A DNA stretch of 64,000 nt from Basidiobolus meristosporus CBS 931.73. Its lineage: Eukaryota > Basidiobolomycota > Basidiobolomycetes > Basidiobolales > Basidiobolaceae. Positions within the stretch are counted from its first letter, which is position 1, and the number at the start of each line of letters is the position of its first letter. The notes beneath the pieces were generated by a model. That model saw only the letters and a program-made list of their open reading frames with translations. It searched no databases and was not told the origin of the DNA. Shown piece after piece: positions 1,621 through 64,000 of this stretch. The stretch spans positions 60,918-124,917 of the forward strand of contig MCFE01000217.1 in NCBI GenBank assembly GCA_002104905.1, in the 5' to 3' direction. Made by a program: the position numbers and the translations under genes.

Positions 1621-4290
1621 ATTCTCTCAAATATAAGACTGTCTTATACTTACATAAGTACTGACAAAAAGATAATAAAGTAGCACTGCATTGTTAAGTG
1701 TCAAACTGTTTTCCCCATGAACAAGACTAAATTGATGCAACATGGTCAGAGAAGAGAAAAAAGACCATGTAGCTATTATTGCTAGCCTCTCAGCCATGAA
1801 GCATGCCAGCAGAATAAGAACTATTGCAAGGATCATGACCAGTGCCTTGCTACACAAGTAATAGTTGGGCAATTATTAATTACTACTTTACCAACAATTT
1901 CAGGCCAGTCACCAGCTACTTATGCAACAGCACCTTGCCATACCTGTCACCCTGCACAAATTGTGTCAGATGAGCTTGTGATGCCACATGGCTCACCTCA
2001 ACCTTATCAAAATGGTCTGTATAGCAATTGCTCCAATGAAGAAGGCCCCTGGATTGACTGTGAGCCCATATCCCCTCAAGCAAGTACCATACATGAGCCC
2101 AGAAAAACACCAATATACAATGAGAAAATACCCTTAAATAATAACCAAGAATACTTTATGAGGCAAGTGAGCCCTGTATTCAATTACTGATGAATGCTAC
2201 AATGTTCTGGCCAGAGAAGTGGCATACTTCCACCAATACCAGCAATGGGAGCTTTGAGGATTTATTGCTTCTGATTGCCAAAGTGATTCCAGGATACAAC
2301 TTAAAAATGAGCCTAGTGCAAATAAAATACTATTGTGCAGTATCCTGTATGATCCTGGAACAAACCTAAAATGCAATGAGACAGAACTGTGGAAAGTGAT
2401 GCTATGGATACATTATGGAGCCAAGTGGGCCCAGAAGCCTACTTGCAGGTAAATAATATTAAATAAATGGCTTGTGTTAAATAACAATATTAATGGGGAA
2501 ATTGAGGATTTACTGTAAATTCTAGCCAAAATCCTTCTGGAATGCAACCTGCTATGTGTTTAGTACAAAGAGACAGCCATTGTATGGCTGGCAGTATATG
2601 AACCAGAGACTCTCCTGATAACAGCATGTGGCAACAGTTGCATTGGATTAACATTGGAAAATACTGCCATTGCACTGTGACTAACTTGTCAGGAATATCA
2701 CAATCAAAAGAGGAAATCATTGCTTACACCCTGTATATATTGTAGTTGCACCCTGTCTTAAAATGCTCATGCAGTCCAGCAAATAATGCAAAGCTATAAA
2801 ACACCCACAAAGTATCAATAAAGTACAAGCAATTTCAATAAATTTGATGTCAAATCTCACAAAAAACTAAGAAGCAAGGGTTACTTTGAAGCTATGTATG
2901 GCAATCTCTGTGACTTGGTACCTGCTCCATTCTCACTGACAAGTACCCTGCCTGCAAATCTTCCTTGCCACTGATACTTATCATGCCAAAATACCCATCT
3001 GTACCCATTGCAGGATGTGCTTTTTATGTTATCTAGCAGGATACTAGTAAATGACATTCATGTTAAAGAGCAAATTATAATCTGCATTTGTGATACCCCA
3101 ACCATCTGTAGGGTAGCCAGCTTTTCTGGGCACTATATACATTATGGCAGATTAATAGGTGAGATCCAGAAAATATGCTCCATGACTTATACACATAATT
3201 ATTTACCAGACACCAACAGTGGAACATCTCTTTCCACAGGAAGAATACACAGAAGTCAGCTTGCAACTGTAGCAAAGCTGTCAAGGTATTGTTGCACATC
3301 ATGGTACAAGGGCTGTAGAGAAATAGTTAGTTTAAATAGTGTTGTATTTGCTAAAACTTGAACTGATTTTTTTTGAGGATCCAGCAGCTTCTTAAATATA
3401 TTTTGCCAAATCAATTGCTGACTAATTTTATTTCCTAATGTAGGTTGTGGCTCATGATTTATACATTTGCAATATCATCACCAAATAAGATCCTACTTTA
3501 AATATCTATTTCTATCTGATAAGGATCTACTAATTAATCTGCTGACTAATGCTATTGATATGATAAATAACACTGATACACTGATAGGCTAAGCATATAA
3601 CTCATTGATTTGACTAAAAACTGATCTAACTTAAACATTCAAGTGGTATATCATAACAGTATAAGCCATTGGTCAGAATATTGAATTAATCAGAGACCGG
3701 ATATACTCAAGCTAGAGGGAATGTGCAATTACAAAAGTTTTCCACTGTGAGTAATGCATCTGAACTCTGATAATATCCCTATACTAATGGCTAAGTTGTA
3801 TATGGTGCATTTCATTCTTAAAGAGCCCTTTATAATAGCATATAACTTTGAATGAGCTAACAGTATAGGAAAGAGGATCCACTATACAGAGTATTTCTTT
3901 TAAGCTCAAGTTAATGGTCATATGGACATGTAACATTATAAATGCAAGAACTGGATGAGCAAGAATATATATCCTCATGTGGACTCTTGAAGCAATTTCT
4001 ACTAACAATACATTGAAGGTATCATATGTTGACATTGCATAACATGTTTTGAACTACTATACTAACAGTGTAAAGCTGCAGATGTAGATTGCTGCCACTA
4101 CTTCATCTATTTACTACACCAACTTATTTTTTTGCGGAAAATATTGGGCCTTACTTAGCCTTCCATTTCTCCTGAAGAGCAGATGTGAGGAAATGGAAGA
4201 TACTGTCATAATCACACAACATTCTTGACTTTTCATGATCTGGCCAAATCAAGTTGGTGAAGAAATCCCAGTTACTTCCAAAAAGCTCTA
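1590..4290 (+). mobile_element. Decayed tnp2-type DNA transposon, copy I (split by a solo LTR)
   Basis: The sequence is collinear with the better-preserved transposase at 14,600-17,490. Matching blocks are the non-coding leader near 1600-1810, the EPISPQASTIHEP region near 2040-2110, the C-x2-C region near 2500-2760, the YKQLRSKGYF equivalent near 2850-2900, and the segment after 3659 that resumes exactly where the LTR at 3290-3658 breaks it. Stops and indels occur in every frame, so no protein is made. The family resembles fungal transposons with tnp2 and DUF4218 domains (CACTA-like or Plavaka-like). I assign the family from motifs in copies II and III, not from this copy alone. Confidence 0.6.
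3290..3658. mobile_element. Solo LTR inserted in tnp2 copy I
   Basis: The 369-bp repeat begins TGTTG and ends ATAACA. It is flanked by gtat on both sides (3286-3289 and 3659-3662). The transposase sequence of copy I is interrupted exactly here compared with 15,930-15,960, where the two flanks are adjacent. The same repeat occurs at 1-318. The duplication reads as four bases, so it is less certain than the five-base cases. Confidence 0.7.
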
Positions 4291-4296
4291 CTATGT

Positions 4297-5060
4297 CTAT
4301 ATGAGTTTAAGAAAATCTTGTATTTGAAGGAAGGCACCTATATGCATGATCAAATCAGTTGGGACCCACCATAGTAAGCTTATATACAAAGCCATGGAGC
4401 CACTTAAAGTAGACCCTATCCAAAGAAGCTCATACAGTCCACCAAATATTGTGGAACTATAAAGCACCGCATTCAGCATCAATCAAGTGCATACATATCA
4501 GATATGTTAGATAGCAATCATTACAAGCAGCCAAGAAGTAAGGGCTACTTTAAAGATACATACTACCATTCCTCTATCTTGGCACTTGATGGATTCTTGT
4601 TGAGCAAATTCTCTACCGGCAACTCCTGCTGGCCACCAACCCAAATTGGCTACCTATCTGATGGTATCAGAGCAGAAATCCAATGGGAGTCTCACTGGCA
4701 TTGGGGCCCATATCTCTATCCAACCTGGATAGCTACCTGTGTTCATTTCTGATTGAATATAGCTACCTGTATTCATTTCTGATTGAATATATATGTTTCT
4801 AGCAGGATAACAGTATATGGCCATCATGCAAAAGCACATATTATTCTCTGCATTGGAGATAGCCCAGCCATCAGCAAGATAACTGGCTTTCCTGAGTATA
4901 ATGAATGGCATTGCTGTCAAATGTGTGAGATCTAAGGGACTCACTTTGTAACTTACACACCATACAATTACCCAAGCCCTGGCACCAAAAAAAGTATCTT
5001 TCTATGGAAAGAACATACAGAAGTCAGTGTACAATTGCAGCAAAGTGGGCATGTTTTAAG
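4297..5060 (+). pseudogene. tnp2-type transposase fragment, second partial copy
   Basis: This second partial copy lies in direct orientation after copy I. Positions 4504-4752 encode a readable 82-residue stretch with YKQPRSKGYFKD and NSCWPP. These match the YKQLRSKGYSED and RSCWPLILINLN region of the transposase at 15,420-15,570. A 27-bp direct duplication (gaatatagctacctgt...) lies at 4753-4791. The fragment ends near 5060, where it meets sequence also found around 22,970-23,085. Confidence 0.55.
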
Positions 5061-42707: not shown

Positions 42708-43880
42708 TTATTCCACTTGGCGTCGGTTGGGGTTGGCGTCCGGGGCGATGCCGACTGTAGTGGCACGCAGAACTTCAAGCTCTCGCAGCACCTCGCAGAG
42801 CTTCGCCTTGAGTGCGTTGTTTTCGTTTCGAAGCGAGTCATTCAACCCTTCAAGATCCCGCAGGAATTGCGTGCGTTTTTCACGGCTGCGCCTAGCGGCG
42901 AGTCGGTTTCTTTCCCGTCTGCGGTTGAGCCGACGTTCGATGACGGAAACCTGCCCGTCGGGCTCGGTGGTTTCGTGATCCCCGCGGCCGTGAGAGCTCA
43001 GGGGCTTTTTGTGGGTTGCCGGGTCGTTGTTCTCTCGTAGTTTCTTCGCCTTGGAATCATGCTTTAACGTGTCGTCTAATGAGAATGAGGGCGAATGGGT
43101 GAGAGCGTCATCTAGTGGGAAGGTGTTTCGAACAGACGCGGAGTGCGTCTGGCTAATGCCATCGGGATTGCCTGGATCCTTTGCTCCATACGGATCCAAA
43201 TAGACTTGGTTGCGAATGTTTTGAAGAGGTATGTTCACCGAAGATCTGCGCACAGATTGTGCAAAGTCCATGTCAGGTCCAAAGAGGTTCGAGTGGTTCA
43301 TGTCGGCCCAGGAGAACACCCTTTTACGGTTGTGGTTGAAATCGGCCATGGCGGAGAATTCGGCCGCCACGCCATTGCCCGGTAGACTGGAGCGTCGCTG
43401 GGAAGAGCCGTCGCTGCTGCTTGGCATCAGAGACATGGCCCCCATGGGTGCTCCAGCGATGGACCCGGCGGCCACACCAGTGCTGAGGTTTCCCCAGTCA
43501 AACTTACTGGGAGTCGCACGATGGTCGAATTCGTAGGAGGGGGGAATTGCACTCTGGGCAATCATGTCATGGGCGAAGCTGGGTTGAGTGGCCAGGTTCG
43601 TGCCAAAATTGTAGTTCATGAGGAACTCGTCTTCACTCACGCTGTTCTGTCTGTCGGAGAGCTTGGACGCGTCGTAGGCGGGGTTGCGAGCCTGCTCCGC
43701 GTCGTTGTCGCTGTTGCTTAGATAGTCGGTGGAAAATACCTGATCAAACTCGTTGACCTCGTTTGGTGGATTGCTCTTGCCGTCAGCAAACTGCTCCATC
43801 AACGTGCGGATAGGAGTAGGCAATGGTTTAGTAATCATGTGCGATGAAACAGTGTTAAGCAGATTGGTGTCCAGGTCCAT
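42708..43880 (-). CDS. bZIP transcription factor
   Basis: This intron-free gene of 390 codons encodes a basic leucine zipper protein. It is expected to bind DNA as a dimer in the nucleus. The C-terminal end carries the domain. A basic region at about residues 314-337 has the N-x7-R signature in ERNRLAARRSREKR. It is followed by heptad leucines from about 340 to 373 (LEGLNDSL, NNAL, V, EVL). Residues 1-313 are polar and Ser/Asn/Asp-rich, as expected for a disordered regulatory region. A TATAAAT run directly abuts the first ATG on the coding strand, so translation may really begin at the next methionine (residue 15). The target genes cannot be told from sequence. It is not clearly of the Atf1, Gcn4 or Yap type. 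Confidence 0.85.
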   Translation of the reverse strand: MDLDTNLLNTVSSHMITKPLPTPIRTLMEQFADGKSNPPNEVNEFDQVFSTDYLSNSDNDAEQARNPAYDASKLSDRQNSVSEDEFLMNYNFGTNLATQPSFAHDMIAQSAIPPSYEFDHRATPSKFDWGNLSTGVAAGSIAGAPMGAMSLMPSSSDGSSQRRSSLPGNGVAAEFSAMADFNHNRKRVFSWADMNHSNLFGPDMDFAQSVRRSSVNIPLQNIRNQVYLDPYGAKDPGNPDGISQTHSASVRNTFPLDDALTHSPSFSLDDTLKHDSKAKKLRENNDPATHKKPLSSHGRGDHETTEPDGQVSVIERRLNRRRERNRLAARRSREKRTQFLRDLEGLNDSLRNENNALKAKLCEVLRELEVLRATTVGIAPDANPNRRQVE

Positions 43881-51107: not shown

Positions 51108-54100
51108 ATGACCGAGTGCTCTATAAACCAATTAGAAGACAGTAATATTCAAAGCCTTACTCATAACTCTGGGGAGTTTTGGGACTCGCAAAAGCACTCC
51201 TCCAAGACTCCTTTACCATACAGCCTGGAGAATATACACCCAGACGATGCTAAAGATAAAGTTTTCGCTGCCATACTAAAGGCGTTGGTTGTGATGGATA
51301 ATAAGCCAAGCTCTCCAAAGGAGCTCGCAAACTGCATCATGAAGCACAAATTCACCATACTAGGGTAAGTTTGAGCAATACATTTGCTTTTAAAAATACG
51401 CTCCTTCATTTTAGCTTATTTAACACCCTCTCTAGTAAGGCAGCCTTGTGGATATTTGTTTTAAATAAATGCAAGGGTGACTTGGGCTTTGACACTTAGT
51501 ACTTTATTTTACTAACTTCTTTCTAAATGATAGTGGCGCCACACCGTACGCAACCGTATCTTCCCGGATATCACAACACTTTAAGCGGGCCGCCGAGCAT
51601 AAGCCTCCACGTCCTCCTCTACTGGCGCGTGTAGTGGACGAAGTGCACTCACGGAAGATTCATTATTACATCGCTGGTGGCAGTGTCCCACAGAGCAAAC
51701 GGAGCGATCCTGTGTGCTCACCTCAAAAAGCGCCAGCCTCTCTCAAAGAAACGAATGCTGTACAGGGCGGTTACCCAAAGTTGCGAATTCGTCTGAAAAG
51801 ACGAAAGAAAGCCAATGAACGTACTGCTCACGTGATGAAGAAGCAAAAAGCAGTTTTGTCTGGAACGAGGCCAGGCATGGGCAAAGGAAAGTGGGTTCCT
51901 CGGACTGAACCAGCCAACTGCATCAAGTCTTACAGCGCAGGTAGCTCGGAAGATGGGAGCGATGCTGACATCGATGCAATCGGTCCTGATTCTGAGCAGG
52001 AGTTTGAGGGTGACATCGCCCGCAGCCACCCGGCTAGCGGCAAGCGTGGCATGTCTTACCATTCGGAGCTCTCCTCTCATGGTACTCAGACTGGCTCCAT
52101 TTCGGTGGACGCATACGATGCAACCACGTCTATGTTAGGCTTGACAAGTGATGCCGAGTATAGTGACTATTTTGAGGAGATGATGAACGGCGACTTGTGC
52201 ATTGATGACGATTCTCCTATCGTCAAACTAGAGCCAGATTCGGCATCTTCGCCTCTCTTTCACCGCTCTCAGCTCGATTCAGTAAACAGCCCTACATACG
52301 ATCTCGGCACCTCCACTTCGTCCACTGTTACCCCTGATCCCCCTGTTCATAAAGAGGTCGGAGTAGATCTCGCGCCAGGAACCAATCTCCTGACCCCGGA
52401 TACAACGTCGCTGTTTGAGCGGGAGCTGGACACGCACCTTATCCCCAGCTTTGGCGACGAATTTAACGAGGATTCACCTTTGCTCTCCAAGAACGTTTCT
52501 TATGTCCCTCTCATGGAGCTAAACAATCCGGAGACCATGCCAGTATCAGAGTTGGACGAACTATTGAATGGGTCTCCTCGTACCCATGACTCGAGTCCTA
52601 AACGCCTATTCGGCTCACGTGACAAGGGCATGACCAAACGTACACCAAACCACGAATTCAGTAGATTTGAAGAGAATCATGACCACAAGGTCCCCTCTCG
52701 AGAAGACGAGATTGCTGATGGTGAGTTGGCTTCATTCAATGTGAAGTCCGATGTAGTGGGAATGGATCTAGACTCTAGATCGTCGGATGGTTCCCCAAAC
52801 CTCTCCCAAGACGGGTCATTTGGAACGATGTCAGTGGATTCCGAACGGACGCCTGTTCATGAAGATAGCACTACCCAGGCCACATCCATGGAAGGTACAG
52901 AACTCCTAAACGAGTCCAACCCGGTGCTGATAGATGCAGAGGCCAAGGCGCCCATGGTTGTGGTCAAGGTTTACTCGAATGTAAGTGTGTATGAGACTGT
53001 GCTCCCAGACACGCAATTGAGGCTACTTCGCTTTAAATCCAACGTTCCAGTCGAAGACTCTAACTCTCGACACAAAAAGTCTATGGTTATGCTTGAAGAA
53101 GACCGCCACAAGGATTTTTGCAACGCCAGCTTGTTGAGGAAAGCCGCCCAGCCTTATGTTGGTGACGGCAAACTTGAAAGCGATGATGGAAACACAAGAT
53201 TTGTCGTCATACGAAATGGCCCTGCTGAATGTCGTGGGGTGTGGTAAGTTCATCTAGCATAGAGGTTCGTGATAATTTGGATATACTAAGCTTAAATTCC
53301 TACGAAATAGGGTTTCCCTAGACCGGGCCCGGCATTTAGTGGAGGAGTATGGAATGCAAAATGTGCCGCATATTCAGAAGTTGTTGAGTGATGCTCCTCT
53401 GGACCAACGATACGGTATGCACCACAAGAGATTTCATGTCGAGCCCGGTTTACTTACCATCGCCACCCCTAGATTTTTCCGAGTCTTCTATGGATCCATC
53501 GGAGATTGACAAGCATCTAGTGGAGCTAAGTGGAATCCTCCAAAATGCGGTATCCGAATACAGCCTTTCGCAAAAGAATCGCACAACTCCTAAATCCGCA
53601 TGCAATTCGAATCACGACGAGAATACCTTTTCCGAACCTCATATTGAAAAGGAGTCGATGGAGTCTGCCAACCCAAGTCACATGGGCGACATTGATCCTC
53701 ATGCGTTCATCAGCTTAGATGAAGACGACGAAGATCAAAGCCACATGCAATGCCATGAAGACGCAAAAACTTGTGATTCATCACCCAGTTCGACAGCTTC
53801 AGGTGGTGAAGGTGACAGTGAGGCCCTTGAGGATATTACGGACGAAAGAAAAGCTTTCATTACCACTCAATCTCCCACTACCCCAACAATTTATCTCACG
53901 GTCATTGAGTCTGTTCCTGTCTATGTGACCTATATATCCAAAGGCGCTGGCAGCAACGAAACTTTTCAGCTAATGCGTCGCTTCGATTCTGGCTACGTTA
54001 ACGGAACCAAACTCCTCATGGCTGGCGGTGTGGAAACCGAAAGTGAACGAACGATCGTGCTGAGCCTTGAGGTTGGCCGAGTTCGTATCCGTAAACCAGA

Positions 54101-54674
54101 GAGCAAGCTGTTTGGTACCTGGTAAGCTAAGTCCCTTCAAGGTTGAAATGTCGTCCGACAAATACTAACGTAGAATAATACAATAAGGATCCCGTTACCC
54201 CGAGCTCGAGCTTTGGCCTCGACATGCTCATTACAGCATAAGCTTGGCCCATTCCTGGACAACAACTTGCCATCCTATTTCTCAACACCGCTCCCAAGTT
54301 CAATCACCACTGCGAGGCCAATGCGTCTTACATCCCGCTTACATCAGGTACTAAAAGCAAAAGACTTGTCTTTAAACACCCGAACCACAATAGGCTCAAG
54401 CGCTGGAGTTTCTCCACAATCTTTGCACCCTTCAAAAAATTTCCTCTCTGGTCCCAACTACCATATTTACCAAATCCTAGGTCTTCAGGGCTCCAAGCAA
54501 TCTAAGAGTGCAGCTTTAAGTGGGCTATTTGGAGGGCCGGGTGTGGTTGGATCCCATGACGATAAGAAAGGAAGTCGATGGTTGAAGAAAGTCAGATCCA
54601 GATTTGGCAACACCAAGCGTTCTGTGAAGGGATCCTGCGAAGAGCATGGCAACTATCAGAAATGTCCGATATGA
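51108..54674 (+). CDS. GDS1-type winged-helix and APSES/KilA-N transcriptional regulator
   Basis: Five exons (51108-51364, 51534-53243, 53311-53414, 53473-54121, 54188-54674) give an intact frame of 1068 residues. Residues about 46-133 match the GDS1-like winged-helix region of fungal regulators (AILKALVVMDNKPSSPKEL, then GGATPYATVSSRISQHFKR and PPRPPLLARV). A long acidic, Ser-rich linker follows. Residues about 558-690 look like a diverged KilA-N/APSES module (VVVKVYSN...WVSLDRARHLV). Residues about 830-945 are a clear one (QLMRRFDSGYVNGTKLL, RTIVLSLEVGRVRIRKPES, FGTWIPLPRARALA). The last exon ends in a basic tail. It is a probable nuclear DNA-binding protein. The start ATG was chosen because it opens the frame just after the CT-rich leader; frames further upstream read through the promoter. 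Confidence 0.88.
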
Positions 54675-55133: not shown

Positions 55134-55148
55134 CTCGGCCATCTTGCC
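55134..55148 (-). pseudogene. tRNA-Leu 5' remnant at the array's left edge
   Basis: Fifteen bases equal to the first 15 bases of tRNA-Leu(UAG) (GGCAAGATGGCCGAG on the minus strand) open unit 1. The remaining 67 bases of the gene are absent, and unique DNA lies to the left. In units 2 and 3 the same position is a complete tRNA-Leu. Confidence 0.85.
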
Positions 55149-55684
55149 ATGTCTTTTCTCCAGGTACACAGTACGCTAGGGATATAGCTGAAATTAGTGG
55201 TATTAGTAGTATTACACCTGCTATCCGACACTAAATCAAAGCCACTTCCAGACATGAATGCATACTACCATCATTGAAGGTGACCAAAATCCTGGGTGCC
55301 TATTACATATCAATGAATATGATGAGGAAACCTCGTTAGACTCGGCTATATGCTATTCCTGTATAATCAGAAGCTAAAAGGACATGCTCCTCCACTGATC
55401 AACAATGTTCTTGAGCTGCAGGCAAATGCTTCTTTTTTATGGGAGTAGGTTGCCAGTAATTGAGTGTTGATTTGGCAAAAATGAACATTCACTACAACAA
55501 CAGCTAGGATGTGAACATACGGCCTTCCTACTAGGAGGGGGTGCGATATCAACCAAGCTATCAAAATTCCGGAGACTCCATCCGCTGAAGTGTTTACTTG
55601 GCCCGCGGTTTGCTAATATGGAGGTTAAACAAACCCTGCACCAAGCCAAAAAAATATACAAAGCTTGATTTAGCATAAAATGAG

Positions 55685-55780
55685 TGCTCCAGGCGGGGAT
55701 CGAACCCGCGACCTTCGCGTGACTCAAGTATAGAGAGTTACTCTATAAGCACGACGCATTAACCACTTTGCTACTGGAGC
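55685..55780 (-). tRNA. tRNA-Ile(UAU), form a, with 23-nt intron, unit 1
   Basis: A 96-nt gene. Acceptor GCTCCAG pairs with CTGGAGC, the T arm is GCGGG-TTCGATC-CCCGC, and the anticodon loop is CTTATAA after splicing. The intron (55,743-55,721) starts one base after the anticodon, the canonical place. A T4 terminator follows (AAAA at 55,675-55,678 on the plus strand). This tRNA decodes AUA. Confidence 0.95.
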
Positions 55781-56136
55781 GTCTTGGTCTAATGCTTCTA
55801 TGGGTTGAAATGATACCTACCCAAAACTTCCAAGCTCAAATATTAGTTGAGTATTTACACACCTCAAGGGTAAGTGTGTACCAAGATATCGATCTAAGGT
55901 GAGCCTCAACAAATAGACAACTTTCTATTCAAAGGGCACTACGTCAGGCTCATTTAGCTATTCAGTGTAGCATGCCATGCCTATGGAATGAGTAGGACTA
56001 GGTTGGTGATTAAAATTACACACCAACTGATAGACACATATAATTAAATTGGTAGCTGAAATCTGAGCCTAATGGTAAGTGTCTGTGTGAAGTAGAGTTA
56101 AACCAGCAACATCTGGATGAGAAGCTGAGTTTAAAA

Positions 56137-56207
56137 TGCATACTCGGGGAATCGAACCCCGGTCTACCGCGTGGCAGGCGGTAATTATACCACTAAACCA
56201 AGTATGC
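56137..56207 (-). tRNA. tRNA-Gly(GCC), unit 1
   Basis: 71 nt with no intron. Acceptor GCATACT pairs with AGTATGC, the anticodon arm is ACCGC-CTGCCAC-GCGGT, and the T arm is CGGGG-TTCGATT-CCCCG. A T4 run follows immediately. It occurs only once per unit. Confidence 0.95.
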
Positions 56208-57156
56208 AACTGTGAACAACTTATCTCTTAAGGAACTCATTATCCCATATATTAAACAGCCGTATAGACAGCACTACAACACCCCATGAATTCAAGGCAG
56301 GAAAAACCGATTATTTGTGTAATGGATAATGACGATTCCTACCCCCTACGTACGAGTGAATCTAATATTCCACTTGTATATGCGGCAGATTGGCCCGCCG
56401 AGTTCATTTTTCATGGAGACAGGCCCAGAGAGATTAGAACAGACTCGTAGCTGAGAGGGGGTATTTTGGTAGGATTTAGGTGGTGTGAGGGGGACCGATG
56501 AGATCACCAGAGACACGCCAACAATAACGACACACACACATAGCATACATGACCAGGCCAATAGTTTAGTTGCGAGGGCGGGATGGGAGTGTGGCAAGTT
56601 CGTGGTTCAAATCCGACCCCCTCGTTAGGATTAGAAGAATCGGCAGTAAAATGAGCGGGTTATGCAGAAATTTTGCGCCAGAAAGAATGGGGGATCCGCG
56701 ACGGATAAGGGAGAGAAAATGGGAAATTTCCAGCAACCCTAAACCCTAAGAGCAGGAATTCAGGGGTTTGCACAGACACGACACTGTGGTGGCAGGATAT
56801 ACAGCAGACTCGTGGGGAATTTTTCTGGTTAGAACCCGTTCCGCACTTTATATTTTGGGAAGAAAGTCATCGGTTTGTAGTGTGAACAGCAGCAGCACCT
56901 ATGGACTGAAAAGGCCTCCACCGACCCCCTTCCTTGAAAGCGGTTGTTGTCACTGTAGCTGGGCGAGCAAGAAAGGGAAAGGAAATGACGAACCGAACCG
57001 AACCAAAATGAAACAACACATAGCTTAGCCGCCTCAGATGTGAAATCACCGTATCCCGAACCAGGCCAGGGGTTATGCACAGGCTACCCAGCAGCGGACC
57101 TTTTGGGGGGGGGGGAAACGGGCGAATGTATAAGAAAAGAAAAAGGGGAAAACAAG

Positions 57157-57238
57157 CGACGGCCACAGGATTTGAACCTGTGCGGGCAGAGCCCAACAGA
57201 TTTCGAGTCTGTCTCCTTAACCACTCGGACAGACCGTC
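57157..57238 (-). tRNA. tRNA-Ser(CGA), first copy, unit 1
   Basis: 82-nt type II tRNA. The anticodon arm is ACAGA-CTCGAAA-TCTGT, with a long variable arm, B box GGTTCAAATCC and discriminator G. The T4 terminator lies 6 bases on. There is no intron. It decodes UCG. Confidence 0.95.
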
Positions 57239-57513
57239 GTACTCACGAGCGATTGTTAATCGCGAATTTATTTCGAATTTCTTATCTGGGTTGAGACAAA
57301 GTGGTGATTCTTCCGAGTACCTTCACTCAATTTAGGGTTAGAGGGTAGATAATGCTAACATTGTAATGCAAGATCCCCAACCAGTCTTTGTAAAAGACAC
57401 GCACGCGTTGCATGGCTGCTTGGATTGCGAGAGACAAGATAAAGCAGATGACATAAGATTAGCCCAAATGGGGTATGGCAACTCAAAGTTAAATGCCCGC
57501 CTGCAAAAAGTAT

Positions 57514-57595
57514 TGACAAGAGTGGGGTTCGAACCCACGCCTCCGGAGAGACTGCGGCCTAAACGCAGCGCCTTGGACCACTCGGCCATCTTGCC
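57514..57595 (-). tRNA. tRNA-Leu(UAG), first copy, unit 1
   Basis: 82-nt type II tRNA. The anticodon arm is CTGCG-TTTAGGC-CGCAG, the acceptor is GGCAAGA with TCTTGTC, and the discriminator is A, as leucyl-tRNAs require. A T5 terminator follows. There is no intron. Confidence 0.95.
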
Positions 57596-57787
57596 TCACG
57601 CAGGGTGCTTGCTTGGCTCAACGGTCTCATGCTCCTTTCCTCAGGCAGCCTTCTCGGGTTACGAGCTATGAATGGGCACATCCAATTCTCAATTCCTAGC
57701 TAACTTATGCTATCGTTGGGGTTAGGGATATTTAGTGGTAGTACTAGCCACTATGGGATGCGCGCACAACAGAGAGCAAACATGACA

Positions 57788-57809
57788 CATTCAATTCAAT
57801 TCAATTCAA
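57788..57809. repeat. ATTCA pentanucleotide repeat
   Basis: About four head-to-tail copies of attca in unit 1. They are repeated unchanged at 61,423 in unit 2. Confidence 0.7.
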
Positions 57810-58075
57810 TACAATATTAGAACAACGCAAAGCCCGGTGGCTTGGGCTAAGTTGATTAGTGACAAATCTCCGCTCTTCTCCTCAAGACATTTCATAGTGA
57901 TGAATAAGCATCTGCATATTGCCGAGTGCCCACGCTAGAAGGGTTAAGTACATCAAGGTTTGTCTGAAAGAGGGAATAAAGAAATATATGATCCTAAAGA
58001 AAAAGGCTAACCTTCTCTTTTCGAGTGTGCTCATGGATTATTACAAGATATGAGCTAAAGAGATGCAAAACACAG

Positions 58076-58171
58076 TGCTCCAGGCGGGGATCGAACCCGC
58101 GACCTTCGCGTGACTGAAGTATAGAGAGTTACTCTATAAGCACGACGCATTAACCTCCTTGCTACTGGAGC
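58076..58171 (-). tRNA. tRNA-Ile(UAU), form b, with 23-nt intron, unit 1
   Basis: A 96-nt gene that differs from form a at a few sites: D-loop GGAGG for AAGTG, and one intron base. The anticodon arm and acceptor are identical to form a. A T4 terminator follows. It is a second, diverged locus within the unit. Confidence 0.95.
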
Positions 58172-58416
58172 CCGTCGTTTACGGCTGATCGTTCTAAATT
58201 TCATTATTTTTTATAATGCATTTATCTCATAGATGTCAGCCGGTCTACTTTTTCCAAATGGAATATAGTTCTTATGATAGTACCTCACCTCATCCACGTG
58301 TTGATAAACATGAGCCGGGATTAGGGTTTCCCAGTAGTACAATGGTAGGTAGCCTACAAATTATTTATCGAAATATCACATAATCACACAGAATGTTTTG
58401 ATCTATTTACAAAAAT

Positions 58417-58498
58417 CGACGGCCACAGGATTTGAACCTGTGCGGGCAGAGCCCAACAGATTTCGAGTCTGTCTCCTTAACCACTCGGACAGACCGTC
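58417..58498 (-). tRNA. tRNA-Ser(CGA), second copy, unit 1
   Basis: Identical over all 82 bases to the gene at 57,157-57,238, but with unrelated flanks. A T5 terminator follows directly. Confidence 0.95.
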
Positions 58499-58701
58499 AT
58501 ACGGGAATCGGAGCAGATTTTAGAGACAACACTTCCATGGTGTAATGCATACAAGTGTAGTCAAAGCAAATAGCCTTGATGGCCACGAGAAAATAAAAGA
58601 TACTTTCCCCATTCGCTAGGCAAGCTCCAAACCATTGAAAATAGTTTACTGGTCAAGTCTAGCTACTAGGTTAAAAAGTATGGATAATACTTAAAAAGTG
58701 T

Positions 58702-58783
58702 TGACAAGAGTGGGGTTCGAACCCACGCCTCCGGAGAGACTGCGGCCTAAACGCAGCGCCTTGGACCACTCGGCCATCTTGCC
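58702..58783 (-). tRNA. tRNA-Leu(UAG), second copy, spanning the unit 1/2 boundary
   Basis: Identical over 82 bases to the gene at 57,514-57,595, with different flanks. Its first 15 bases (58,769-58,783) are the start of unit 2. A T5 terminator follows. Confidence 0.95.
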
Positions 58784-59319
58784 ATGTCTTTTCTCCAGGT
58801 ACACAGTACGCTAGGGATATAGCTGAAATTAGTGGTATTAGTAGTATTACACCTGCTATCCGACACTAAATCAAAGCCACTTCCAGACATGAATGCATAC
58901 TACCATCATTGAAGGTGACCAAAATCCTGGGTGCCTATTACATATCAATGAATATGATGAGGAAACCTCGTTAGACTCGGCTATATGCTATTCCTGTATA
59001 ATCAGAAGCTAAAAGGACATGCTCCTCCACTGATCAACAATGTTCTTGAGCTGCAGGCAAATGCTTCTTTTTTATGGGAGTAGGTTGCCAGTAATTGAGT
59101 GTTGATTTGGCAAAAATGAACATTCACTACAACAACAGCTAGGATGTGAACATACGGCCTTCCTACTAGGAGGGGGTGCGATATCAACCAAGCTATCAAA
59201 ATTCCGGAGACTCCATCCGCTGAAGTGTTTACTTGGCCCGCGGTTTGCTAATATGGAGGTTAAACAAACCCTGCACCAAGCCAAAAAAATATACAAAGCT
59301 TGATTTAGCATAAAATGAG

Positions 59320-59415
59320 TGCTCCAGGCGGGGATCGAACCCGCGACCTTCGCGTGACTCAAGTATAGAGAGTTACTCTATAAGCACGACGCATTAACCA
59401 CTTTGCTACTGGAGC
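59320..59415 (-). tRNA. tRNA-Ile(UAU), form a, unit 2
   Basis: Exact copy of 55,685-55,780 at +3,635, intron and terminator included. Confidence 0.95.
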
Positions 59416-59771
59416 GTCTTGGTCTAATGCTTCTATGGGTTGAAATGATACCTACCCAAAACTTCCAAGCTCAAATATTAGTTGAGTATTTACACACCTC
59501 AAGGGTAAGTGTGTACCAAGATATCGATCTAAGGTGAGCCTCAACAAATAGACAACTTTCTATTCAAAGGGCACTACGTCAGGCTCATTTAGCTATTCAG
59601 TGTAGCATGCCATGCCTATGGAATGAGTAGGACTAGGTTGGTGATTAAAATTACACACCAACTGATAGACACATATAATTAAATTGGTAGCTGAAATCTG
59701 AGCCTAATGGTAAGTGTCTGTGTGAAGTAGAGTTAAACCAGCAACATCTGGATGAGAAGCTGAGTTTAAAA

Positions 59772-59842
59772 TGCATACTCGGGGAATCGAACCCCGGTCT
59801 ACCGCGTGGCAGGCGGTAATTATACCACTAAACCAAGTATGC
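59772..59842 (-). tRNA. tRNA-Gly(GCC), unit 2
   Basis: Exact copy of 56,137-56,207 at +3,635. Confidence 0.95.
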
Positions 59843-60791
59843 AACTGTGAACAACTTATCTCTTAAGGAACTCATTATCCCATATATTAAACAGCCGTAT
59901 AGACAGCACTACAACACCCCATGAATTCAAGGCAGGAAAAACCGATTATTTGTGTAATGGATAATGACGATTCCTACCCCCTACGTACGAGTGAATCTAA
60001 TATTCCACTTGTATATGCGGCAGATTGGCCCGCCGAGTTCATTTTTCATGGAGACAGGCCCAGAGAGATTAGAACAGACTCGTAGCTGAGAGGGGGTATT
60101 TTGGTAGGATTTAGGTGGTGTGAGGGGGACCGATGAGATCACCAGAGACACGCCAACAATAACGACACACACACATAGCATACATGACCAGGCCAATAGT
60201 TTAGTTGCGAGGGCGGGATGGGAGTGTGGCAAGTTCGTGGTTCAAATCCGACCCCCTCGTTAGGATTAGAAGAATCGGCAGTAAAATGAGCGGGTTATGC
60301 AGAAATTTTGCGCCAGAAAGAATGGGGGATCCGCGACGGATAAGGGAGAGAAAATGGGAAATTTCCAGCAACCCTAAACCCTAAGAGCAGGAATTCAGGG
60401 GTTTGCACAGACACGACACTGTGGTGGCAGGATATACAGCAGACTCGTGGGGAATTTTTCTGGTTAGAACCCGTTCCGCACTTTATATTTTGGGAAGAAA
60501 GTCATCGGTTTGTAGTGTGAACAGCAGCAGCACCTATGGACTGAAAAGGCCTCCACCGACCCCCTTCCTTGAAAGCGGTTGTTGTCACTGTAGCTGGGCG
60601 AGCAAGAAAGGGAAAGGAAATGACGAACCGAACCGAACCAAAATGAAACAACACATAGCTTAGCCGCCTCAGATGTGAAATCACCGTATCCCGAACCAGG
60701 CCAGGGGTTATGCACAGGCTACCCAGCAGCGGACCTTTTGGGGGGGGGGGAAACGGGCGAATGTATAAGAAAAGAAAAAGGGGAAAACAAG

Positions 60792-60873
60792 CGACGGCCA
60801 CAGGATTTGAACCTGTGCGGGCAGAGCCCAACAGATTTCGAGTCTGTCTCCTTAACCACTCGGACAGACCGTC
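60792..60873 (-). tRNA. tRNA-Ser(CGA), first copy, unit 2
   Basis: Exact copy of 57,157-57,238 at +3,635. Confidence 0.95.
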
Positions 60874-61148
60874 GTACTCACGAGCGATTGTTAATCGCGA
60901 ATTTATTTCGAATTTCTTATCTGGGTTGAGACAAAGTGGTGATTCTTCCGAGTACCTTCACTCAATTTAGGGTTAGAGGGTAGATAATGCTAACATTGTA
61001 ATGCAAGATCCCCAACCAGTCTTTGTAAAAGACACGCACGCGTTGCATGGCTGCTTGGATTGCGAGAGACAAGATAAAGCAGATGACATAAGATTAGCCC
61101 AAATGGGGTATGGCAACTCAAAGTTAAATGCCCGCCTGCAAAAAGTAT

Positions 61149-61230
61149 TGACAAGAGTGGGGTTCGAACCCACGCCTCCGGAGAGACTGCGGCCTAAACG
61201 CAGCGCCTTGGACCACTCGGCCATCTTGCC
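61149..61230 (-). tRNA. tRNA-Leu(UAG), first copy, unit 2
   Basis: Exact copy of 57,514-57,595 at +3,635. Confidence 0.95.
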
Positions 61231-61710
61231 TCACGCAGGGTGCTTGCTTGGCTCAACGGTCTCATGCTCCTTTCCTCAGGCAGCCTTCTCGGGTTACGAG
61301 CTATGAATGGGCACATCCAATTCTCAATTCCTAGCTAACTTATGCTATCGTTGGGGTTAGGGATATTTAGTGGTAGTACTAGCCACTATGGGATGCGCGC
61401 ACAACAGAGAGCAAACATGACACATTCAATTCAATTCAATTCAATACAATATTAGAACAACGCAAAGCCCGGTGGCTTGGGCTAAGTTGATTAGTGACAA
61501 ATCTCCGCTCTTCTCCTCAAGACATTTCATAGTGATGAATAAGCATCTGCATATTGCCGAGTGCCCACGCTAGAAGGGTTAAGTACATCAAGGTTTGTCT
61601 GAAAGAGGGAATAAAGAAATATATGATCCTAAAGAAAAAGGCTAACCTTCTCTTTTCGAGTGTGCTCATGGATTATTACAAGATATGAGCTAAAGAGATG
61701 CAAAACACAG

Positions 61711-61806
61711 TGCTCCAGGCGGGGATCGAACCCGCGACCTTCGCGTGACTGAAGTATAGAGAGTTACTCTATAAGCACGACGCATTAACCTCCTTGCTAC
61801 TGGAGC
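61711..61806 (-). tRNA. tRNA-Ile(UAU), form b, unit 2
   Basis: Exact copy of 58,076-58,171 at +3,635, intron included. Confidence 0.95.
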
Positions 61807-62051
61807 CCGTCGTTTACGGCTGATCGTTCTAAATTTCATTATTTTTTATAATGCATTTATCTCATAGATGTCAGCCGGTCTACTTTTTCCAAATGGAATA
61901 TAGTTCTTATGATAGTACCTCACCTCATCCACGTGTTGATAAACATGAGCCGGGATTAGGGTTTCCCAGTAGTACAATGGTAGGTAGCCTACAAATTATT
62001 TATCGAAATATCACATAATCACACAGAATGTTTTGATCTATTTACAAAAAT

Positions 62052-62133
62052 CGACGGCCACAGGATTTGAACCTGTGCGGGCAGAGCCCAACAGATTTCG
62101 AGTCTGTCTCCTTAACCACTCGGACAGACCGTC
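62052..62133 (-). tRNA. tRNA-Ser(CGA), second copy, unit 2
   Basis: Exact copy of 58,417-58,498 at +3,635. Confidence 0.95.
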
Positions 62134-62336
62134 ATACGGGAATCGGAGCAGATTTTAGAGACAACACTTCCATGGTGTAATGCATACAAGTGTAGTCAAA
62201 GCAAATAGCCTTGATGGCCACGAGAAAATAAAAGATACTTTCCCCATTCGCTAGGCAAGCTCCAAACCATTGAAAATAGTTTACTGGTCAAGTCTAGCTA
62301 CTAGGTTAAAAAGTATGGATAATACTTAAAAAGTGT

Positions 62337-62418
62337 TGACAAGAGTGGGGTTCGAACCCACGCCTCCGGAGAGACTGCGGCCTAAACGCAGCGCCTTGGA
62401 CCACTCGGCCATCTTGCC
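62337..62418 (-). tRNA. tRNA-Leu(UAG), second copy, spanning the unit 2/3 boundary
   Basis: Exact copy of 58,702-58,783 at +3,635. Its 5' end opens unit 3. Confidence 0.95.
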
Positions 62419-62954
62419 ATGTCTTTTCTCCAGGTACACAGTACGCTAGGGATATAGCTGAAATTAGTGGTATTAGTAGTATTACACCTGCTATCCGACA
62501 CTAAATCAAAGCCACTTCCAGACATGAATGCATACTACCATCATTGAAGGTGACCAAAATCCTGGGTGCCTATTACATATCAATGAATATGATGAGGAAA
62601 CCTCGTTAGACTCGGCTATATGCTATTCCTGTATAATCAGAAGCTAAAAGGACATGCTCCTCCACTGATCAACAATGTTCTTGAGCTGCAGGCAAATGCT
62701 TCTTTTTTATGGGAGTAGGTTGCCAGTAATTGAGTGTTGATTTGGCAAAAATGAACATTCACTACAACAACAGCTAGGATGTGAACATACGGCCTTCCTA
62801 CTAGGAGGGGGTGCGATATCAACCAAGCTATCAAAATTCCGGAGACTCCATCCGCTGAAGTGTTTACTTGGCCCGCGGTTTGCTAATATGGAGGTTAAAC
62901 AAACCCTGCACCAAGCCAAAAAAATATACAAAGCTTGATTTAGCATAAAATGAG

Positions 62955-63050
62955 TGCTCCAGGCGGGGATCGAACCCGCGACCTTCGCGTGACTCAAGTA
63001 TAGAGAGTTACTCTATAAGCACGACGCATTAACCACTTTGCTACTGGAGC
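62955..63050 (-). tRNA. tRNA-Ile(UAU), form a, unit 3
   Basis: Exact copy of 55,685-55,780 at +7,270. Confidence 0.95.
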
Positions 63051-63406
63051 GTCTTGGTCTAATGCTTCTATGGGTTGAAATGATACCTACCCAAAACTTC
63101 CAAGCTCAAATATTAGTTGAGTATTTACACACCTCAAGGGTAAGTGTGTACCAAGATATCGATCTAAGGTGAGCCTCAACAAATAGACAACTTTCTATTC
63201 AAAGGGCACTACGTCAGGCTCATTTAGCTATTCAGTGTAGCATGCCATGCCTATGGAATGAGTAGGACTAGGTTGGTGATTAAAATTACACACCAACTGA
63301 TAGACACATATAATTAAATTGGTAGCTGAAATCTGAGCCTAATGGTAAGTGTCTGTGTGAAGTAGAGTTAAACCAGCAACATCTGGATGAGAAGCTGAGT
63401 TTAAAA

Positions 63407-63477
63407 TGCATACTCGGGGAATCGAACCCCGGTCTACCGCGTGGCAGGCGGTAATTATACCACTAAACCAAGTATGC
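63407..63477 (-). tRNA. tRNA-Gly(GCC), unit 3
   Basis: Exact copy of 56,137-56,207 at +7,270. The window ends before the next tRNA of this unit. Confidence 0.95.
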
Positions 63478-64000
63478 AACTGTGAACAACTTATCTCTTA
63501 AGGAACTCATTATCCCATATATTAAACAGCCGTATAGACAGCACTACAACACCCCATGAATTCAAGGCAGGAAAAACCGATTATTTGTGTAATGGATAAT
63601 GACGATTCCTACCCCCTACGTACGAGTGAATCTAATATTCCACTTGTATATGCGGCAGATTGGCCCGCCGAGTTCATTTTTCATGGAGACAGGCCCAGAG
63701 AGATTAGAACAGACTCGTAGCTGAGAGGGGGTATTTTGGTAGGATTTAGGTGGTGTGAGGGGGACCGATGAGATCACCAGAGACACGCCAACAATAACGA
63801 CACACACACATAGCATACATGACCAGGCCAATAGTTTAGTTGCGAGGGCGGGATGGGAGTGTGGCAAGTTCGTGGTTCAAATCCGACCCCCTCGTTAGGA
63901 TTAGAAGAATCGGCAGTAAAATGAGCGGGTTATGCAGAAATTTTGCGCCAGAAAGAATGGGGGATCCGCGACGGATAAGGGAGAGAAAATGGGAAATTTC

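Follow-up and report, generated by a model that had tools for sequence, protein, structure and literature searches.

Evidence for tandem arrays of mixed tRNA, 5S rRNA and U2 genes in the fungus Basidiobolus meristosporus

The closest analogue of the arrays considered here is found in Entamoeba, in which almost all transfer RNA (tRNA) types are encoded in many distinct tandem arrays (PMC2652664). The units are uniform within an array, some include 5S ribosomal RNA (rRNA) and some an extra small RNA, gene orders are related, retrotransposons lie beside arrays and a few isoacceptors are dispersed. Between E. histolytica and E. dispar the tRNA genes align from unit to unit and the spacers do not, and the E. 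histolytica arrays make up more than 10% of the genome; their describers called the function obscure (PMC2652664). Thousands of tRNA genes, most of them in tandem arrays, are reported for Phytophthora infestans in a paper that also calls dimeric and trimeric tRNA arrays in fungi infrequent, not absent (PMC9584435). For the animal Hydractinia, tandem arrays are described that hold genes for spliceosomal RNA, for rRNA and for tRNAs of every one of the 20 amino acids (PMC11067881). A 2010 survey states that no tandem tRNA repeats had been reported outside Entamoeba, and concludes that other clades too have evolved large tRNA clusters independently (PMC2888827). Here we describe a 64,000-nucleotide stretch (the window) of Basidiobolus meristosporus CBS 931.73, a fungus of the Basidiobolomycota with a genome sequenced by PacBio (PMC7466969). 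The window comprises the last 64,000 bases of contig C444 (124,917 bases), its final base being the final base of the contig, and it ends in a tandem array of a seven-tRNA unit. With a probability of about 0.85, we take this array to be one of many tandem RNA-gene arrays in the host, formed and maintained in the manner proposed below.

The sequence-only reading had assigned this DNA to a fungal genome, which it is, and had named Entamoeba as the nearest parallel. The comparison bears this out, since mixed-tRNA units, uniform arrays, 5S in some of them and some dispersed isoacceptors recur in Basidiobolus. Basidiobolus units are mostly 3.3-5.9 kb long with 7-17 genes, whereas those of Entamoeba have up to six tRNAs plus 5S in 2.36 kb, and spacers are 57-63% A+T in nine Basidiobolus arrays against about 70-80% in Entamoeba (PMC2652664). 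Short tandem repeats, present in E. histolytica and E. dispar only (PMC2652664), are absent from the C444 unit. Basidiobolus also has canonical telomeres and a retrotransposon that inserts precisely at RNA polymerase III (Pol III) sites. P. infestans differs in that about 64% of its arrays are single-gene and 36% have dimeric or trimeric units (PMC9584435), whereas Basidiobolus mixes up to 17 genes. Hydractinia and Nematostella are animals with evenly spaced, near-identical copies, and mixed tRNA-5S-U2 units go unmentioned in the available portion of that paper (PMC11067881). In the titles and opening abstract lines of open-licence literature we found no report of Basidiobolus tRNA arrays or, for any fungus, of tandem tRNA units with several genes. 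Because the host is a fungus, the likeness to Entamoeba is presumably convergent, an assumption taken from taxonomy.

The array at the end of contig C444

From position 55134 to the window end the sequence has an exact period of 3,635 bp, with 5,232 consecutive positions matching their partners 3,635 bp further on, a regularity that rules out a chance or low-complexity repeat. Units 1 and 2 are identical at 3635/3635 positions, as are unit 2 and the partial third unit at 1597/1597. Together, the 2.44 units hold 16 complete tRNA genes, all on the minus strand, which we scored against Rfam RF00005 (52.1-65.6 bits) and called with ARAGORN run with and without introns. Each unit contains Ile-TAT twice (with a 23-nt intron), Ser-CGA twice, Leu-TAG twice and Gly-GCC once, in the minus-strand 5' to 3' order, from the unit boundary, Leu-TAG, Ser-CGA, Ile-TAT, Leu-TAG, Ser-CGA, Gly-GCC, Ile-TAT. 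The left edge of the repeat lies inside a Leu-TAG gene, and a 15-bp stub therefore stands before the first complete gene. The features of the array are as follows.

55134..64000, no strand assigned: tandem array, 2.44 units of 3,635 bp, ended by the contig (exact periodicity; 100% unit identity)
55134..58768, minus: unit 1, seven tRNA genes, the seventh (Leu-TAG) extending 15 bp into unit 2
58769..62403, minus: unit 2, same sequence as unit 1
62404..64000, minus: partial unit 3, 1,597 bp, same as unit 2 throughout
55134..55148, minus: Leu-TAG stub, 15 bp, left array edge (start of periodicity against the complete gene at 58702-58783)
55685..55780, minus: tRNA-Ile(TAT), 23-nt intron, unit 1 (Rfam 58.8 bits; ARAGORN with intron)
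56137..56207, minus: tRNA-Gly(GCC), unit 1 (Rfam 65.6 bits)
57157..57238, minus: tRNA-Ser(CGA), unit 1 (Rfam 56.4 bits)
57514..57595, minus: tRNA-Leu(TAG), unit 1 (Rfam 57.3 bits)
58076..58171, minus: tRNA-Ile(TAT) copy 2, 23-nt intron, unit 1 (Rfam 52.1 bits; ARAGORN with intron)
58417..58498, minus: tRNA-Ser(CGA) copy 2, unit 1 (Rfam 56.4 bits)
58702..58783, minus: tRNA-Leu(TAG) copy 2, across the unit 1/2 junction (Rfam 57.3 bits)
59320..59415, minus: tRNA-Ile(TAT), unit 2 (Rfam; ARAGORN with intron)
59772..59842, minus: tRNA-Gly(GCC), unit 2 (Rfam)
60792..60873, minus: tRNA-Ser(CGA), unit 2 (Rfam)
61149..61230, minus: tRNA-Leu(TAG), unit 2 (Rfam)
61711..61806, minus: tRNA-Ile(TAT) copy 2, unit 2 (Rfam; ARAGORN with intron)
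62052..62133, minus: tRNA-Ser(CGA) copy 2, unit 2 (Rfam)
62337..62418, minus: tRNA-Leu(TAG), unit 2/3 junction (Rfam)
62955..63050, minus: tRNA-Ile(TAT), partial unit 3 (Rfam; ARAGORN with intron)
63407..63477, minus: tRNA-Gly(GCC), partial unit 3 (Rfam)

Without introns, ARAGORN names one Ile-TAT gene of each unit Ser-AGA and misses the other; with introns allowed, it calls both as Ile-TAT with a 23-nt intron, and their exons and intron are nearly identical on contig C216. A run of at least four T begins no more than 5 nt from the ARAGORN 3' end in 16/16 genes. The sequence-only reading had described a seven-tRNA, minus-strand unit of 3,635 bp repeated head to tail without a difference, with a T terminator at every gene, and both descriptions hold. 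Its further claim that the array continues past the window stands in so far as the repeat reaches the window end; the array is cut off there because contig C444 itself ends. Neither ARAGORN nor Rfam RF00005 finds a tRNA at positions 1-55133. Tandem Repeats Finder (TRF), applied to the C444 array only, found no short tandem repeats inside 55134-64000, and an inverted-repeat scan found none in this array. The whole unit matches C444 only in a genome search (best 40 of 134 candidates).

Unit types across the genome

A genome search for tRNA genes gave 62 matches from the best 63 of 3,931 candidates, many of them recurring at fixed spacing on other contigs. We fetched 30 further stretches of the same genome (240,029 bases) and ran ARAGORN with introns allowed; for C713, C1291, C1306 and the ends of C16 and C216, array status comes from other tRNA matches, these contigs being read in part. 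The window and the 30 loci yield 485 ARAGORN tRNA calls with 101 distinct sequences in 32 anticodon classes, and the arrays jointly encode all 20 amino acids. One class, Cys-ACA, is a single gene at the edge of the C680 array and probably a decayed Arg-ACG, and the class that ARAGORN calls Asp with an intron is Tyr-GTA. By gene order and period we distinguished, by hand, 14 types of multi-gene units with 7-17 genes; the types are not independent of each other and some may be variants of one another.

Type A: C275, C439, C1; 5,488 bp; 17 tRNAs
Type B: C339, C16, C615; 5,488 bp; 14 tRNAs and 5S
Type C: C964, C680, C197; 5,227 bp; 17 genes
Type D: C964; period 10,117 bp including an inserted retrotransposon; 14 genes
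Type E: C1258; about 4,327 bp; 12 genes
Type F: C418, C249; 5,898 bp; 12 genes
Type G: C426; 4,007 bp; 9 genes
Type H: C970; 7,325 bp, inverted pairs; 9 genes
Type I: C615; 3,488 bp; 10 genes
Type J: C711; 3,268 bp; 7 genes
Type K: C444, the window array; 3,635 bp; 7 genes
Type L: C216; 7 genes
Type M: C1268; 4,315 bp; 14 genes
Type N: assembled from pieces of C1 and C1107; 14 genes; carries a U2 small nuclear RNA (snRNA) gene

Direct head-to-tail repetition is seen in 11/14 types (A to G, I, J, K and M), and at the level of whole units on C444, C964, C426, C615, C711, C275, C339, C1258, C418 and C439. The type B unit carries a 5S rRNA gene: five of the nine 5S matches lie in B-type stretches (C339 twice, C16, C615 and C1291, the last read in part), one is a partial match at the far end of C615 and three are on C1106, C1301 and C752. 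These last three (C1106:32265, C1301:164734 and C752:14313) are 99%, 96% and 83% identical to the array copy. U2 snRNA genes stand among the type N tRNA genes at L023:1140-1333 and at L029:3115-3308 and 4146-4339. Because the arrays cover 20 amino acids together with 5S and U2, tandem arrays are a general mode of RNA-gene organization in B. meristosporus. The same coverage leaves unsupported, as stated, the suggestion in the sequence-only reading that the array serves the dosage of selected tRNAs; as a general account, a dosage role confined to a few tRNAs is ruled out.

The gene order of the types is inherited between them. With all types but H treated as circular, 116/161 signed neighbor pairs are present in at least two of the 14 types, compared with a mean of 18 and a maximum of 39 shared pairs in 2,000 random orders; the pairs Ile-AAT/Asp-GTC, Gly-GCC/Thr-AGT and Asn/Tyr are found in seven types each. 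Types K and L differ in order only by the absence of one Ser and the presence of an additional Arg-CCT, yet they align only in pieces of 76-120 bp around the tRNA genes and one piece of 17 bp, the spacers remaining unaligned. Within direct arrays unit identity is 99.7-100%, with slight divergence of neighboring units on C1258 (99.8%) and C418 (99.9%), and the edge of the C680 array has drifted to 95.5-96.2%. The view that uniformity is kept by exchange, put forward from the window, agrees with these identities, with the drifted edge and with the unaligned K-L spacers. Unequal crossing-over or gene conversion within an array would keep its units uniform and let their number drift, and rare exchange between arrays would shuffle blocks of genes and so give rise to new unit types.

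Function, insertion and CpG retention

Genome-wide searches with up to three mismatches allowed located the cores of tRNA-Trp (42 nt) at 21 places, tRNA-His (51 nt) at 13 and initiator tRNA-Met (50 nt) at 11, every one of them exact and on contigs with array genes, and none of these cores was found outside such contigs. Ser-CGA occurs at six places, all on C444 and C216, five of them exact and one with three mismatches. Exons are identical among 19 Tyr genes, whose introns are of five kinds; one further Tyr gene, on C680, is decayed. Runs of four T lie within 30 nt of the 3' end in 470/484 genes (one of the 485 being too near a sequence end), compared with 831/4,777 spacer stretches. Ser-AGA accounts for 10 of the 14 genes without such a run and stands 3-4 bp ahead of Ile-AAT in types A, F, G and M. 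Because it lies so close and has no terminator of its own, the two probably form a two-gene transcript, as far as gene arrangement can tell. Such pairs, with the Ser gene lacking its own terminator, are seen at loci L012, L006, L018, L022, L026, L027 and L028. The array tRNAs would be transcribed by Pol III gene by gene, with Ser-AGA and Ile-AAT paired.

These observations bear on the possibility that the arrays are inert repeats or pseudogenes and that dispersed genes supply the cellular tRNA. Intact dispersed genes do exist (Thr-CGT, Leu-CAG, Pro-CGG and Arg-CCG), which speaks for it, but the confinement of the Trp, His and initiator-Met cores to array-gene contigs, the invariant Tyr exons beside variable introns, the kept terminators, the kept CpG and the retrotransposon insertions at Pol III sites all speak against it, and we give it hardly any credence. 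A pseudogene cluster as such is ruled out by the core searches, the terminators and the Tyr pattern, in line with the earlier impression that the window genes look functional. The array genes are under selection and probably needed, and since the three cores occur only on array-gene contigs, the arrays are very probably the main working source of tRNA.

A long terminal repeat (LTR) element of 5,378 bp with 310-bp LTRs recurs among the array contigs and encodes Ty3_capsid, protease, RVT_1, RNase H and integrase domains. A 4-bp target-site duplication flanks three of the four complete elements checked (on C1258 and both on C964), the element on C1 having none; in yeast Ty3 the duplication is 5 bp. 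At array loci, 12/15 insertions have an edge 6-12 bp upstream of a Pol III gene (9-12 bp for tRNAs, 6 bp for 5S). Because these first insertions came from loci chosen as arrays, the LTR was searched genome-wide, which gave at least 41 matches (best 40 of 65 candidates). Nine of the contigs listed had no known arrays, although C824 among them was already known to hold Leu-CAG, and on these 7/9 insertions have a tRNA gene 9-12 bp from an edge: Pro-CGG on C725, Thr-CGT on C47, C7 and C648, Leu-CAG on C878, Arg-CCT on C1057 and Arg-CCG on C824. At the other two (C791 and C1220) there is no tRNA gene within 201 bp on either side. Among three more flanks (C1291, C713 and C1306) that of C1291 qualifies, with Lys-CTT at 10 bp. 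Overall, 20/27 insertions with at least one edge read sit 6-12 bp upstream of a Pol III gene; distances were measured to the gene, and some of the 20, for example those at 5S on C16 and C615, may go back to a single event that was copied along with the unit.

The Basidiobolus element resembles budding-yeast Ty3 in its Ty3/gypsy polyprotein with Ty3_capsid and in its insertion near Pol III start sites, and differs in its 4-bp duplication and in having many targets inside tandem arrays. In yeast, Ty3 integrates by way of TFIIIB, 2-3 bp upstream of the Pol III transcription start site (PMC8632968). Because of this mode of targeting, the insertions are, by analogy, an indirect sign that the array genes carry Pol III factors. 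The Ty3-like element would thus use Pol III initiation sites as landing sites, both in arrays and at dispersed tRNA genes.

The arrays also retain CpG. The observed-to-expected CpG ratio is 0.73 in the C444 array and 0.72-0.81 in six other array stretches, with 0.21 in the retrotransposon; within the window it is 0.05 at about 1-32 kb and 0.79 at 33-55 kb. The first of these parts is transposon-derived (a Transposase_21 match, and an RVT_2 match below the Pfam cut-off). Many diverged repeat pairs are seen in 1-32000, and a sharp compartment border lies near 33 kb. When stray or edge copies are compared with array units, C>T or G>A changes at CpG make up 11/15 differences on C569, 16/28 on C1117, 8/15 on C50 and 37/74 at the C680 edge. 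Mutated CpG positions number 11/26, 16/32, 9/22 and 39/112, respectively, against 2/336 in an inner C680 unit. Solitary tRNA-bearing fragments of array units (L021:965-1244, L031 and L032) have decayed mostly at CpG.

On the reading preferred here, arrays that are transcribed and constantly homogenized would escape the CpG loss that ruins other repeats, and stray copies and array edges would lose this protection and decay. Beyond this we entertain, tentatively and with more doubt than conviction, the idea that the arrays are a Pol III counterpart of nucleolar ribosomal DNA (rDNA), in which, in a genome whose repeats are stripped of nearly all CpG, essential RNA genes are sheltered from repeat-directed mutation in open, homogenized, mixed tRNA/5S/U2 arrays, possibly in a nuclear compartment of their own, and genes that leave singly are mutated away. 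The survival of dispersed families with identical members, such as Thr-CGT, weakens the shelter idea. Early-diverging fungi are described as rich in N6-methyladenine and poor in 5-methylcytosine (PMC8298701), and a simple account through 5-methylcytosine is therefore disfavored. A C5-cytosine methylase domain has five matches in the genome, two with an internal stop.

Competing explanations and implications

Several observations weigh against the arrays as a genome-wide system, or limit how far they can be read. The repetition of type M spans 380 bp only, type H is seen only as inverted pairs, and types L and N were not seen repeating. Thr-CGT occurs at no fewer than 30 places, which are spread over 27 contigs and never adjoin the arrays read (best 40 of 46 candidates, the other ten matches being elongator-Met genes), and 24/30 of these genes are full-length and identical; that all tRNA genes are arrayed is thereby ruled out. 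Seven Thr-CGT genes lie within 1.5 kb of a contig start, on contigs that include C1059, C497, C316, C313, C62, C603 and C102. Leu-CAG (C769, C805, C824, C20 and C878), Pro-CGG and Arg-CCG were met only outside arrays. The arrayed share of the isoacceptors was gauged from the sampled loci, which cover 20 amino acids, with four isoacceptors found dispersed. For the retrotransposon, 7/27 insertions lack a Pol III gene in the 12 bp next to whichever edges were read (C791, C1220, one palindrome partner on C964, C197, C439, C713 and C1306); in the last four a single edge was read, the distance being 37 bp on C713 and 100 bp on C1306. Transcription of the array genes is itself deduced from their sequence. 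Assembly polishing may sharpen the 100% unit identity, and neither unit number nor array length can be read from the assembly. In addition, near-perfect inverted repeats are present on several array contigs; their loops measure 72-159 bp (C970, C615, C16, C197 and C1258) or are not resolved (palindromes on C964, C216 and C1107). On C1, two types meet at a retrotransposon that has no target-site duplication. The inverted repeats, 0.8-4.3 kb long, are seen in arrays and in the retrotransposon (L013, L016, L024, L025, L009 and others); we suspect PacBio or assembly artefacts, the alternative being real fold-back duplication.

The inverted repeats and the C1 join would fit an assembly in which units exist once or a few times, the assembler circled through repeat loops and the arrays are false. 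Such an artefact would also suit units up to 100% identical and arrays that meet contig ends (C444, C426, C418, C970, C964, C1258, C275, C339 and C615). It is nonetheless improbable, given that several different unit types share the head-to-tail design, that neighboring units differ on C1258 and C418, and that the C680 edge is decayed and no mere copy. Missed PacBio adapters yield inverted repeats, not direct ones; no 14-nt fragment of the SMRTbell adapter was found in the loci, inverted-repeat loops included. The multi-tRNA units stand even if their number is wrong. Exact repeats that end at a contig edge would likewise result if units were amplified as extrachromosomal circles, and an episomal rDNA circle is described for Entamoeba (PMC2652664). 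We regard circles as very unlikely, since the C444 array is joined leftward to non-repeated sequence with probable genes, the tRNA stretch of C1 is internal to a telomere-bearing contig of 345 kb, and the C964 retrotransposons occupy different sites in different units, which is easier in chromosomal arrays. The unique left flank of the C444 array holds open frames that are probably a protein-coding gene (51634..54125, plus strand; open reading frames of 537 and 245 amino acids, no Pfam match), and a gene lies at 42708-43880 whose bZIP product is 100% identical to a protein of B. meristosporus CBS 931.73.

No better supported is a telomeric or subtelomeric device, as proposed for Entamoeba, in which chromosome ends are capped or buffered by arrays. 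In its favor, several arrays run up to a contig end, and of the Thr-CGT genes some are near contig ends and one, on C21, is about 5 kb from telomere repeats. Against this, canonical TTAGGG is present (7,428 overlapping pattern hits in forward and 81 in reverse orientation, with places located for the first 100 listed, on C1, C2, C21 and C22), and on C1 (345,098 bp), the one of these four contigs that was read, which has TTAGGG at its right end, the tRNA stretch occupies 143-157 kb and is separated from the telomere by about 187 kb. Because TTAGGG exists and the C1 stretch is internal, telomere substitution is ruled out as a general account of the arrays, although a link may exist at other ends. 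The subtelomeric block offered in the sequence-only reading fails as a general account in the same way, although the C444 array itself might lie near a chromosome end. The TTAGGG hits are strongly biased to one strand, and because they are mostly forward, the contigs seem to be oriented with telomeres at the right.

Taken as tandem arrays of RNA genes, the Basidiobolus loci provide a second, independent case of the Entamoeba kind. Here the host is a fungus that can be cultured, the units are larger, the telomeres are canonical and Pol III genes are marked by a retrotransposon. The case argues against a telomere-replacement function for this host and makes other functions of such arrays testable, namely dosage, homogenization and a shelter against the loss of CpG. 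A further suggestion is that entire arrays may be overlooked when the tRNA genes of early-diverging fungi are counted in short-read or collapsed assemblies. If the shelter idea were true, tandem arrays would evolve repeatedly as a shelter for multi-copy RNA genes against repeat-directed mutation.

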